Of a stretch of 64,000 nucleotides of DNA, positions 55,905 to 59,577 are shown piece after piece. A program made the position numbers and the translations under genes. Every line of letters starts with the position of its first letter. The stretch's first letter is position 1. Below the pieces are notes generated by a model. The model searched no databases and had not been told where the DNA came from. It worked only from the letters and a program-made list of their open reading frames with translations. Origin of the DNA: Pseudoclavibacter triregionum (lineage in GTDB: Bacteria; Actinomycetota; Actinomycetes; Actinomycetales; Microbacteriaceae). Location of the stretch: NCBI GenBank assembly GCA_910822395.1, contig OU365335.1:1798001-1862000 (forward strand), read 5' to 3'.

Positions 55905-56595
55905 CTAGGACGCGGCGATCGGCCGCGCGCCGCGGTCGATCAGGAGCGCCTGCAGCTCGTCGGCGTCGTGCGCGAGGAAGCTCGTCGCGTACTTCCGCGT
56001 CCGGCCGCCCACGCGGCGAAGCACGAGCGCCTGGCCGCCCTCCCGGCGGGGCACCTGGAGCTGCGAGAGGAGCGGGGTCTTCGGCCGGCGCCACGGCTCG
56101 AAGCCACCTCGAGCTCCGCGATCGGGATCGTCTCCGCCGGGGCGGCGTACTGCTCTGGGAACCGCAGCTCCGCGCCCACGAGCTCGGCCACATAAGGCGC
56201 GGCGAGCGGCACGGGGTCGCCGGACGCGCGCCGCAGGCCGCGGACGGAGCGGATGCCCGACCAGAGCAGGAGCGCCGCGAACGCGAGCGGGATCGGCCAG
56301 GTGAAGAGCATGGGGAAGTCGCGGCCGAGATCCTCGCCCCGGGTGAGCTTGAGGACGAGCATGACGACGACGAACGGCATGCCGACGATGAGCAGCCCGC
56401 CGCAGCCGAGGCCCGTGATCGCCGCGAAGCGCAGCCGTCCGCGAGGGGCAGTCGGGAGCGGGTGGAGCCCGGGGCCCATTCGATGCGGATCAGCACGGCC
56501 GAGCGGGCGTCCGCGCCGAGCGGGGAGGACGGCGAGACCGGCGAGGAGCCGGAGAGGTGCTCCGAGGATCGCTCCGGCCAGCTCCCGGAGGTCAC
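55905..56595 (-). pseudogene. Frameshifted small membrane protein gene
   Basis: Coding-like sequence is split over three frames. A GTG at 56595 overlaps the DUF4190 stop (GTGA) and reads VTSGSWPERSSEHL...AVLIRIEWAPG. A second frame, with an ATG at 56479, encodes two transmembrane helices (FAAITGLGCGGLLIVGMPFVV and PIPLAFAALLLWSGIRSV) and VAELVGAELRFPEQYAAPAETIPIAELEV. Near 56100 the sensible reading shifts again to PLLSQLQVPRREGGQALVLRR...SFLAHDADELQALL, ending at the TAG at 55905. Each switch fits one lost base. Either a decaying gene or sequencing errors; the central frame alone could still make a 179-residue protein. Confidence 0.55.
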
Positions 56596-57020
56596 CAGAT
56601 CGTCCCGGCGCCGAGGAAGATCGAGAAGCCCGCGAGGGCGCCGAGCACGAGGCCGATGATCGCCATCGCCATGCCGCCGCGGCCCTCGTTCGCCTTCACG
56701 ATGCCGACGATGCCGAAGATGACGGCGAGGAGGTCGGGGAGCGCGCCGAGGAAGATGCCGATGAAGAACGGGATCCACGTCGTGCAGAAGCCCCAGATGC
56801 CGAGGACGAGCGCCGAGACGGCCATCCCGTTGCCGCGCCGCGGCACGGCGACCGCGTAGGGGTTGGCGTAGCCGTAGGGGGAGCCGTAGGGGCCCGGGGC
56901 GTAGCCGCCGGACGCGAAGGGGTTCGCGCCGCCGTAAGGGGACTGCTGGCCGTAGGGCACGATCTCGCCGCCCGGCGGGGTGGCGGGGACGTTGCCGTAA
57001 GGGGGGTACTCGCCGGACAT
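56592..57020 (-). CDS. DUF4190 membrane protein with PYG-rich N-terminus
   Basis: 142 residues. The first 60 are a Pro/Tyr/Gly-rich tail (PYGQQSPYGG, PYGSPYGYANPY). Two transmembrane helices follow, in a DUF4190 domain: AVSALVLGIWGFCTTWIPFFIGIFLGALPDLLAVIFGIVGIVKA and GMAMAIIGLVLGALAGFSIF. Function of DUF4190 is unknown. AGGAGC SD upstream of the ATG. Its stop overlaps the start of the frameshifted gene (GTGA), so the two formed an operon. Confidence 0.85.
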   Translation of the reverse strand: MSGEYPPYGNVPATPPGGEIVPYGQQSPYGGANPFASGGYAPGPYGSPYGYANPYAVAVPRRGNGMAVSALVLGIWGFCTTWIPFFIGIFLGALPDLLAVIFGIVGIVKANEGRGGMAMAIIGLVLGALAGFSIFLGAGTIW

Positions 57021-57162
57021 CGCTGCTCCTGAGGTCGTGCGGGCGGGACTCGCCGGCGCGCGCCTGCTGAGCCGCGCTCGCCTCCCGGAAGCCTAAGGCG
57101 GGAACGCGCCCCGCGGATCCGCTCCGGGGCTACGATTTCCTCGTCGCGGGGTACCGCGGCGC

Positions 57163-57236
57163 GGGGCGGTAGCTCAGCCGGTCAGAGCAGTGGACTCATA
57201 ATCCATCGGTCACGGGTTCAAGTCCCGTCCGCCCCA
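57163..57236 (+). tRNA. tRNA with CAT anticodon (elongator Met or lysidine-modified Ile2)
   Basis: 74-nt cloverleaf: acceptor GGGGCGG/CCGCCCC, discriminator A (57236), D arm GCTCAGCCGGTCAGAGC, anticodon loop CTCATAA with CAT at 57197-57199, T arm ACGGG-TTCAAGT-CCCGT. CCA is not encoded (ACCC follows). Not the initiator, since the anticodon stem lacks the three G-C pairs. Met and Ile2 cannot be separated without comparing identity elements. Confidence 0.95.
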
Positions 57237-57260
57237 CCCATGACGTCGCGGCGGGATTGG

Positions 57261-58523
57261 TCACCGAGCGTCTACCCATGCCTGGATGTCGCGGACGACT
57301 CGCGCATGGTCGTGCTTCCGAGACGGTACCGGCAGCTGCAGGAAGCCATCGTCATGGATTTCCAACATCGGCAAGGGCTCCTCGCGGAGGCGGACGACAA
57401 GCGCGCCCGTGGCGAGGAGGTCGTTTGTCTTCTCGGTGTCGAGCTCGACTTTCGCGCCGTGCCAGTAGGAGCCGTCGTACTCGATGAGGAGCAGCCGTTT
57501 GCTTGGCAGTGTGACGGTGATGTCCGGGTACCAGGTGCCCTGCCGCTTGAATGCCGCGTCGCTAATCGGCTTCCCAGAGACGGCATTGCCGAAGAGGGCT
57601 TCGGCTGCCTTTGCGTACTCGAGTTCGACCCACGACTTGCCGCTTTGCCGGCACATCGGGCACTGGTTGTAACCCGTCGTGCGCTGGCCAATGGTGGCGT
57701 GCCAAAGGTGGCTGGGGTCGTCCGGACATTGCCACTCAGGCTTGTAGGGGGTGGTGCCAGTTGGGCGGACCTGCCAGGCGGTCTGGGGATTGCTCGCCGA
57801 CCACTCCGCGGCGACTTCGGGGAAGTGGTACGCGAGCGAGTCGAGGATGGTTCGGCACTCCGGGCATCGCCAGCGGGGCACCTTCTGGCGGTCATGAACA
57901 GTTTCCGCCCACTCATGGCCGCAGATGGGGTCTCGCCAGAGGACGAGTCGCTTCGAAGACGAGGTGATGGTGTCTGCAGTGACGTTGGACTTGCGGACGG
58001 TCGCGACGAACTGCTCGTGCAGCTCGCGCGAGAGGTTGCGGTCAAGCTCCCCGCGCCGACCTCCGAGCGCGCCGCTGCAGCCGCAGACATCGGGGAAATC
58101 GCCAGGTCGCTCCGGGGTCTGCCGACCGCAGTTCTGGCACCGGTAGAGGTACACGCCTCCGCCGAGGTCGGCGATGACCTCCCGGCCTCGGTCGACGGTG
58201 CCCACTGCGATCCTGCGTGGGCGAGAGACGCCTCCCATCGCCGCGGAGTCGATGTACCACTTCCGCCAGAAGCAGGCTCGGCACGTGGGTTCATGCCATT
58301 GATTGCGGTCGATCGTGTACTCGAGCTTGTAGTGGGCTTCGGCGCCGCAAGTGAGACACCTAGTGAGGCGGTAGACGCCCGGCTTCACGAAAGGCTCGAG
58401 CGGTTGGAGGCCCCCTTCCGCAAGGAGTTCGTCGATGTGGCGGTTGCACCACGCGCGGCGGGTGCGGGTGGGGAAAGCGGCGACCTCGTCGCAGCCATCG
58501 GCTGCGCACATCTTCGGTTCCAT
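57261..58523 (-). CDS. Multi-zinc-ribbon protein with C-terminal Vsr-like (PD-(D/E)XK fold) nuclease
   Basis: 420 residues, lower GC and different codon use from its neighbours. Five Cys clusters look like zinc ribbons: C6/C11/C26, C56-C59/C81-C84, C129-C132/C147-C149, C201/C220-C223 and C266/C288-C291; the last two have the DUF4379 pattern (F-P-E-VAAEW ... W-x-C-P ... H-x-W ... R-T-x-G-x-x-x-CPMC). The C-terminus (297-385) contains WYPDITVTLPSKRLLLIEYDGSYWHG, matching the PDI...DGxxWHG core of Vsr/DUF559-type endonucleases, with candidate metal ligands D334, E348 and D350. AGGAGG precedes the ATG at 58523. It ends 24 nt from the tRNA. Likely acquired and possibly defence-related (inference). 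The equally long open frame on the plus strand is a shadow. Confidence 0.85.
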   Translation of the reverse strand: MEPKMCAADGCDEVAAFPTRTRRAWCNRHIDELLAEGGLQPLEPFVKPGVYRLTRCLTCGAEAHYKLEYTIDRNQWHEPTCRACFWRKWYIDSAAMGGVSRPRRIAVGTVDRGREVIADLGGGVYLYRCQNCGRQTPERPGDFPDVCGCSGALGGRRGELDRNLSRELHEQFVATVRKSNVTADTITSSSKRLVLWRDPICGHEWAETVHDRQKVPRWRCPECRTILDSLAYHFPEVAAEWSASNPQTAWQVRPTGTTPYKPEWQCPDDPSHLWHATIGQRTTGYNQCPMCRQSGKSWVELEYAKAAEALFGNAVSGKPISDAAFKRQGTWYPDITVTLPSKRLLLIEYDGSYWHGAKVELDTEKTNDLLATGALVVRLREEPLPMLEIHDDGFLQLPVPSRKHDHARVVRDIQAWVDAR

Positions 58524-58607
58524 CGGCCTCCTAGCTCGCAATCTTCGTGAGCGTAGCTCGCCACCCAGCACGGCGCGACGTACGGGGCAGCGTCGGGGCG
58601 CCGGCAG

Positions 58608-59048
58608 CTAGCGGTTGAAGTCGTCCGTGATCGTGATCTCGCCGGGCTCGTCGAAGCGGAGGGCGTCGCTGCACTCGAGCGTGACCTGCACGCGCTCGGA
58701 GGAGAGCGTCGGCGTCGCCGCGCCCGCCGGGAGACGGCACTCGAGCGTCGTGCCGTCGTCGTAGACGACCGTGGCCGCGGGGGAGAAGGGCGCGCCGTCC
58801 GCCTTCGTGACGATCGCGGTGAGGGCGAGCGTCTTCGCGCCTTCGGCGTTCGTGTCGGAGATCGCGTTCGCGTCGATCGAGTACGCGGCCGAGTGGGTGG
58901 CGTCGGTGACTGTGAGGCCGGTCTGCATGGTGGGCCCCGTCGTGGCGTCGGCGTCGCCGCCGTCCTTCGTCGAGCAGCCCGCGAGCGAGAGGGCGGCGAG
59001 GACGGCGAGCGAGGCGGCGAGGCCGCGGCGGCGGTGGAGCGTCGGCAT
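58608..59048 (-). CDS. Small secreted lipoprotein, function unknown
   Basis: 146 residues. The signal peptide HRRRGLAASLAVLAALSLAGC has a lipobox LAGC, so it is predicted to be lipid-anchored at Cys25 or so. The mature part is Thr/Asp-rich, ends in EITITDDFNR, and has two further cysteines (LECRL, LECSD) likely to form a disulfide; beta-rich with no recognised domain. TACCCT on the reverse strand (59055-59060) ends 6 nt before the ATG: leaderless. Lies between the nuclease and a small membrane protein. Confidence 0.8.
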   Translation of the reverse strand: MPTLHRRRGLAASLAVLAALSLAGCSTKDGGDADATTGPTMQTGLTVTDATHSAAYSIDANAISDTNAEGAKTLALTAIVTKADGAPFSPAATVVYDDGTTLECRLPAGAATPTLSSERVQVTLECSDALRFDEPGEITITDDFNR

Positions 59049-59184
59049 ACCGGCAGGGTAGGCGGGCGGGCGGATGCCGCGCGCGAGGCGCACCGCGAGG
59101 GCGCGCGGCCGGCGGCCGGGACGCTCGGCGCGGGCGGTTCTCCGGGCGTCGCGATCCTGCCGCCATCGCCACGGAGAGGACGCT

Positions 59185-59577
59185 ATGCACGAGCTCGGAC
59201 ACGCCGGCGCGCAGCAGCCCATCGACATCGGCCCGATCCGCGTGGCCGGAGACTGGATCACGGGCCCGCAGGGGCAGATCCCCGCCGCCGGCTCGCGGAT
59301 CTCCATCTCGAACCAGACCATGACGCGCGAGGCGATCCCCACCTGGGCCATCGTGTGCGCCATCGTGGGCTTCTTCGTGCTCACGGTCTTCTCGCTCCTC
59401 TTCCTCCTCGCGAAGGAGCAGCGTGTCGAGGGCGTCATCCTCGTCCGCGCGCAGGCGGCCGACGGCCGGATGCTCGAGGGCGGGGTCCCCGTCACGCAGC
59501 AGAACTTCGGCTGGGCTTGGAATGACCTCAGCTCGCGCGCGCACGCCGCGAATACGATGCTCGCGACCCGCGGCTAG
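59185..59577 (+). CDS. Small single-TM protein, function unknown
   Basis: 130 residues. A hydrophilic N-terminus with GPIRVAGDWITGPQGQIPAAG, one transmembrane helix (IVCAIVGFFVLTVFSLLFLLA, about residues 56-77), and a C-terminal extracellular or cytosolic part of about 50 residues with VEGVILVRAQAADGRM. GGAGAGG upstream of the ATG acts as SD. Related small proteins with a similar TM-then-beta pattern are common and unnamed in Microbacteriaceae (recollection). No function can be assigned. Confidence 0.7.
   Translation: MHELGHAGAQQPIDIGPIRVAGDWITGPQGQIPAAGSRISISNQTMTREAIPTWAIVCAIVGFFVLTVFSLLFLLAKEQRVEGVILVRAQAADGRMLEGGVPVTQQNFGWAWNDLSSRAHAANTMLATRG

Follow-up and report, generated by a model that had tools for sequence, protein, structure and literature searches.

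The window analysed here is a 64,000-nucleotide (nt) stretch of the Pseudoclavibacter triregionum genome (assembly GCA_910822395.1, contig OU365335.1, positions 1,798,001 to 1,862,000) and carries a 420-residue open reading frame (ORF) that, by its design and ancestry, appears from sequence comparison to be a homing-type endonuclease. As to what the enzyme does, we judge it an even call that this is a mobile endonuclease built like a homing enzyme, with foreign DNA as its main substrate, a reading that draws on the predicted architecture, the invariant residues, homology to phage proteins annotated as homing endonucleases, foreign base composition, patchy distribution in the genus, carriage of relatives by a prophage and by plasmids, and purifying selection in close relatives. 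An N-terminal row of zinc-ribbon or treble-clef modules would grip the DNA sequence, and a C-terminal domain of the Vsr/I-Bth0305I fold would cut the DNA so held, making the enzyme free-standing and site-directed. The zinc array probably reads DNA sequence, the target would be foreign (phage or plasmid) DNA rather than the cognate empty allele alone, and the loss of two modules described below may have altered the recognition site of the window copy or made it shorter.

A sequence-only reading of the window had proposed a zinc-ribbon array joined to a Vsr-like nuclease, and this is borne out by a DUF4379 match, five zinc sites and a structure model. The DUF4379 profile (PF14311) matched in two stretches above its Pfam gathering cut-off (55 versus 24.5 bits; E-value 9.4e-15), two of the five zinc sites lie within DUF4379-type modules, and the predicted structure has a model pLDDT (predicted local distance difference test) of 90.5. 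Across 48 aligned sequences (the window protein and its relatives) the cysteine ligands of the zinc sites are conserved in 45-48 rows; among the histidines, H272 is present in all 48, position 29 holds H or C in 45, and H203 is found in only 34. The nuclease core that the same reading had picked out (PDI...EYDGSYWHG) is present as PDI...IEYDGSYWHG, and its D334, E348, D350 and H355 are invariant in 48/48 rows, as are E300, W354, K358, D362, K365, R380 and E381. Among solved structures, I-Bth0305I, a homing endonuclease (PDB 3r3p, 'Mobile intron protein'), is the closest by sequence (E-value 2.3e-4), with an alignment that covers part of the domain; 3r3p holds the catalytic domain, so that the DNA-binding parts fall outside the comparison. 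I-Bth0305I is of group I intron origin. The window protein shares the Vsr/I-Bth0305I nuclease fold and the sequence similarity that define EDxHD/Vsr-type homing endonucleases, and E300, D334, E348, D350, H355 and D362, all invariant, are candidates for the catalytic residues of the published EDxHD motif. Going by the structure model, the label Vsr is correct at the level of the fold.

Two further readings were weighed. Vsr mismatch endonuclease (PDB 1cw0) is not known to carry a zinc-ribbon array and is tied to Dcm methylation, and a host DNA-repair or mismatch enzyme of this type is very improbable because the nearest sequence relative of the window protein is a homing endonuclease and not Vsr. 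No Vsr model was among the matches of the window protein at E-values up to 1 in Pfam or NCBIfam, both of which hold one; about 70 related loci contain no recurrent methyltransferase partner, Type III methyltransferases being verified in three related loci only; and the gene is rare and patchy, with matches at E-values up to 1e-10 in 10 of the 398 genomes drawn from the bacterial family (the window's own included). It is likewise improbable that the protein is directed at RNA, which it might bind or cut, as the presence of DUF4379 in kinetoplastid mitoribosome proteins and of a RAP module of the same fold in FASTKD4 could suggest; against this, the nuclease residues are invariant throughout the alignment and the best nuclease match is a DNA homing endonuclease. 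Among the remaining profile matches, DUF559 (PF04480) stayed below its gathering cut-off (16.1 versus 20.6 bits; E-value 0.01), NCBIfam returned one meaningless match (E-value 0.11), and PHROGs returned an 'HNH endonuclease' family (E-value 1.3e-9).

The architecture also appears, at the sequence level, to match a group of phage homing endonucleases, a point absent from the sequence-only reading. A profile of the family found three 'homing endonuclease' genes of Bacillus phage AR9, gp264 (E-value 5.1e-11), gp145 (1.9e-8) and gp187 (4.0e-6). A 2025 paper (PMC12350094) describes proteins of phage introns in which an EDxHD/Vsr-like nuclease is combined with three to five domains of CapR/DUF4379/DUF723-like type; it regards them as a large unrecognised homing-endonuclease outgroup with thousands of UniProt hits and their zinc array as likely DNA-binding. 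The window protein resembles them in its several zinc modules and C-terminal Vsr-like nuclease as well as in the significant profile match. The settings differ: AR9 gp145 lies within gp144, the split gene of the virion RNA polymerase, where a group I intron identified with Rfam overlaps its end, and gp187 and gp264 lie beside RNA polymerase genes, whereas none of the actinobacterial genes examined lies in an intron and their locations are chromosomes, plasmids and a prophage. These actinobacterial proteins usually have seven zinc sites, the window copy five. At the gp145 and gp187 loci the polymerase genes hold further introns, the Rfam search recovering both group I and group II introns there; the same search, made in the window, in 9 viral loci and in 19 of the bacterial family loci, found no intron in any of them.

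This ancestry gives weight to the possibility, which we nevertheless regard as rather unlikely, of a selfish free-standing homing endonuclease that cuts the allele without the gene and is copied in by repair, any benefit to the host being incidental. The nearest relatives in both architecture and sequence are homing endonucleases, and the genes are patchy, often broken and mostly solitary (a single match at E-values of 1e-20 or lower in 14 of 16 genomes, the other two carrying a distant second one). The missing introns count against it, and so do the neighbours: even the most frequent neighbour family, as clustered by blastp, is present in at most 6 of about 70 loci, so that no common target locus is visible. 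The window gene itself is intergenic beside a transfer RNA (tRNA) gene with no neighbour common to its relatives. We prefer a role against foreign DNA because of the lack of an intron or common target in the loci searched, the carriage of relatives by a prophage and plasmids, and the defence-type neighbours described below.

The relatives are mostly about 580-630 residues long with seven zinc sites. As called, 36 of the 48 aligned proteins have 579-627 residues, 7 are longer owing to upstream starts and 5, the window protein among them, are shorter. Only 17 residues separate C149 and E167 in the window protein, compared with 106-188 in 46 of the 48 rows and 42 in a Bifidobacterium protein, and we therefore read it as having lost two zinc modules in frame, the largest such loss among the 48 sequences. 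The loss parallels that in ICP1 gp174, a point in favour of selfish homing: according to PMC10448857, CapR-type zinc arrays occur on T5orf172 nucleases (CapR, DUF723 and DUF4397 by its text, 'DUF723/4379' by a legend), and gp174 carries an in-frame 228-bp deletion that is expected to alter specificity. The likeness extends to a modular zinc DNA-binding array on a nuclease and to in-frame module loss, but the T5orf172 nuclease is a phage-encoded GIY-YIG enzyme whereas the window nuclease has the Vsr fold. The window protein further departs from the family at W172F, H173V and N178K (W, H and N being present in 45, 44 and 47 of the 48 rows, respectively), sits on a branch that is long without being extreme (1.45; median 0.37), and groups with proteins from Propionibacteriaceae and from Micrococcales metagenome-assembled genomes (MAGs) with support of 90/93, below the starred level.

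The gene was apparently acquired from another species. Its GC content is 0.655 against a mean of 0.725 (standard deviation 0.024) for 31 plausible window ORFs and is the lowest among 47 listed ORFs, and its GC at third codon positions is 0.81 against a mean of 0.94 (standard deviation 0.07), a value undercut (0.735) by one or more of these ORFs, probably a spurious antisense frame; the low GC and distinct codon use remarked on earlier are thus confirmed. It is the single match in its 2.36 Mb genome. Nine further genomes from the genus, of which one is 83% complete, have no match at E-values up to 0.001, and this absence supports acquisition together with the low GC. Low GC as a family-wide property was ruled out, since gene minus flank GC averages -0.003 over 41 loci (window included; Wilcoxon p 0.80). 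The window gene differs from its flanks by -0.072, which fits a gene that came recently from a host with a GC content of about 65%.

The point of arrival lies between proA and glgP. A comparison with an empty site, as the sequence-only reading had suggested, was provided by one congener (our genome G001), in which proA, the tRNA gene and glgP are neighbours, the tRNA and the aligned glgP start being about 80 nt apart; the same interval in the window holds the nuclease gene, a lipoprotein-like ORF and a small membrane protein. In three others (G008, G003 and G002) the distance from proA to the tRNA is 4.5-6.5 kb with other genes between, and the tRNA is inverted in G003 and G002; the remaining five have tRNA matches of only 72% identity. 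The interval (window 55940-59577) varies within the genus and is a variable site rather than a clean single-gene insertion. In an empty-site comparison in Kitasatospora the flank diverges in all three genomes. The span first singled out, 57163-58523, consists of the nuclease gene and the tRNA gene, which are convergent, with 22 nt (not 24, as first given) from the stop codon to the tRNA 3' end. A duplicated tRNA end was not seen here either: no exact repeat of the tRNA of at least 12 nt, and hence no attachment-site repeat, was found anywhere in the window on either strand. The suggestion of integration at the tRNA fell on this result and on the relatives: among 70 related loci, a tRNA lies within 300 nt of the gene in 1 and within 1000 nt in 2, about what tRNA density predicts (about 0.5 loci within 300 nt, worked by hand from 15 tRNAs in 1.19 Mb). 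Adjacency to a tRNA is not a family trait.

Relatives were gathered by searching genome contigs with two peptide patterns, which gave 143 stretches, of which 101 were confirmed and 79 loci (numbered with the prefix L) kept. The 47 loci placed on a tree all bear actinobacterial names, and relatives occur across Actinomycetota. Matches were also found in 37 plasmid records, one phage and 8 viral-contig loci (the viral loci by alignment A1), while a single-protein search found no close viral relatives; the listed plasmid proteins are mostly named 'zinc-ribbon domain-containing protein', some 'DUF559' or unnamed. The protein family is a common one.

How the gene travels can be followed in one lineage. 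Corynebacterium pelargi L069 and viral contig L133 have 2,057 nt in common at 90.3% identity, comprising the gene and about 100-205 nt but no further flank, and L069 and an Actinomyces MAG (L073) have 2,075 nt in common at 90.8%; the left flank of L073 is hardly tested, because this contig begins just 234 nt before the gene. Two large tandem serine recombinases (Pfam Resolvase and Recombinase) abut the nuclease gene at L073:1988-5016 and L133:4037-7138, those of L133 being followed by amidase and phage holin genes. The nuclease gene in L073 and L133 is end cargo of a prophage, which accounts for the spread in this lineage and counts against selfish homing as its cause. In L069 the gene is flanked by a cut-off Type ISP restriction-modification gene (L069:9598-9942; ISP_coupler 27.9 bits, cut-off 27), which ends at the start of the shared DNA, and by an apparent serine-recombinase remnant (L069:11751-12119), an ORF whose end resembles a recombinase C-terminus as judged by eye; left flanks differ among the copies. 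We take the flanks of L073 and L133, by eye, to be a BREX-type methyltransferase and a permease, Pfam giving no match for either. The flanks of L069 and L073 had raised the idea of methyltransferase genes as a homing target; this was dropped, as the L133 copy interrupts the apparent ABC-transporter permease and the vehicle is a prophage. Further members are carried by Rhodococcus, Mycobacterium and Arthrobacter plasmids. An apparent enrichment of recombinases near the gene (13 within 3 kb or overlapping versus 5 at 3-9 kb) was not used, because 7 of the 18 were the seeds themselves, which had been chosen for proximity and included a 'tyrosine integrase' that is probably an antisense ORF.

Close relatives are under purifying selection. 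The whole-gene ratio of nonsynonymous to synonymous substitution rates (dN/dS) is 0.12-0.41 in 11 of 12 chosen close pairs, some sharing members, and 0.51 in a nearly identical pair; the window copy was too distant from its relatives to be included. Regional values are mostly below 0.42, with 0.44 (L016/L104) and 0.67 (L063/L070) in modules 4-5 and 0.9, from very few changes, in the nearly identical pair. Selection that spans the protein counts against selfish homing, though active homing endonucleases are selected too. Between L068:9989-11776 and L091:9989-11800 synonymous divergence is 0.14-0.29 over zinc modules 1-5 and rises to about 1 or saturation in the last modules and the nuclease, which suggests a gene mosaic by recombination.

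For the neighbours, eight near-duplicate loci were removed and genes were drawn at random. Of the 231 genes within 3 kb, 110 were drawn and gave matches to 201 PADLOC models and 93 Pfam families; of the 221 at 6-10 kb, likewise 110, with 60 PADLOC models and 148 Pfam families. Among the matches listed, the near genes include AbiLi, AriA and methyltransferases of Types II and III. Next to L068 are Type III mod and res genes (Pfam), with blastp homologues beside L085 and L091, an nSTAND gene adjoins L060, and AlbA and DUF4062 genes lie near L103 (Pfam). A conserved partner gene was ruled out by the scarcity of shared neighbour families already given, the most frequent neighbours being IS3 transposases, ABC transporters and resolvases (named by eye). 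The excess of defence-type neighbours is suggestive and not a test, because PADLOC models are redundant and the far set has BrxL (1 gene) and Mrr_cat (2) among its listed matches.

Several of these points weigh against a role in cutting foreign DNA: the far set shares such genes, the counts are of redundant models and not of matching genes, the three Type III restriction-modification loci are one related site, and mobile cargo of any kind has similar neighbours. To them are added the lack of any PADLOC-DB family for the window protein at E-values up to 1 and the loss of the full-length ORF in at least 15 of 71 loci, judged from lengths and motifs with L067 (contig end) and short full-span forms left out; an automatic pattern call (41 intact, 30 broken) was too strict at the N-terminus and was set aside, its 41 serving for the GC comparison. 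Such decay is described for selfish homing endonucleases too (PMC10448857). The window copy, moreover, may be weakened, given its long branch, two lost modules and F172/V173/K178 departures. Of the proposed defence or repair role, the defence half draws some support from the neighbours of certain relatives, and the repair half gives way to the homing-endonuclease relationship; defence by this single gene remains an inference. The profile checks proposed with it yielded DUF4379 but a sub-threshold DUF559 and no Vsr or PADLOC model. Among the open-licence PMC papers listed by the literature searches, none treats this protein as a defence system, to judge by title and abstract start.

Beyond the window copy, we tentatively entertain, with less than even confidence, a large actinobacterial family of solitary, protein-only immune nucleases domesticated from homing endonucleases, whose specificity would depend on how many zinc modules they have and of which kind, and whose genes would move one at a time on prophages and plasmids into defence islands, in some cases paired with or fused to an exonuclease; the window protein would be a five-module specificity variant of a seven-module norm. 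Its interest lies in the natural two-module deletion. Should the array read DNA in register, nature would have a means of re-aiming a nuclease by protein alone, through the gain and loss of modules, and five- and seven-site relatives would permit a direct comparison of module-wise reading. A family of this kind would also bear on homing endonucleases as a general source of bacterial immune nucleases, as is suggested by Odn of phage ICP1, a nuclease whose homing-type domain has been turned to immunity against a satellite and which has a RepA_N domain in place of the zinc array (PMC8263062).

Table 1. Features of the nuclease gene and the adjoining tRNA gene, in window coordinates
Feature	Position	Strand	Basis or remark
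Coding sequence, 420 residues, zinc-ribbon array and Vsr-fold endonuclease	57261..58523	-	intact ORF, ATG at 58523
Shine-Dalgarno-like AGGAGG	58527..58532	-	read from sequence; 3 nt 5' of ATG
Putative zinc site 1: C6, C11, C26, H29	58437..58508	-	alignment
Putative zinc site 2: C56, C59, C81, C84	58272..58358	-	alignment
Putative zinc site 3: C129, C132, C147, C149	58077..58139	-	alignment
Position of two missing zinc modules (about 150 residues)	58029..58076	-	alignments A1, A2
DUF4379-type module, site C201, H203, C220, C223	57852..58028	-	PF14311 best stretch 176-224; alignment
DUF4379-type module, site C266, H272, C288, C291	57642..57842	-	
Vsr/I-Bth0305I-fold nuclease domain	57264..57641	-	
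tRNA gene, anticodon CAT, intact	57163..57238	+	ARAGORN, Rfam RF00005

Some related loci hold an exonuclease. An RNase_T exonuclease gene lies directly upstream of zinc-array genes at L055:9046-9981 (10 nt away), L122:1394-3136 and L097:1381-3123, with a BRCT domain also present in L122 and L097. At L052:8063-9670 an RNase_T exonuclease is fused to zinc modules 1-3 without the Vsr-fold nuclease. In L097 a second zinc-array protein with five DUF4379 stretches (L097:3-1271) follows the exonuclease gene on the same strand, the family member being on the opposite strand.
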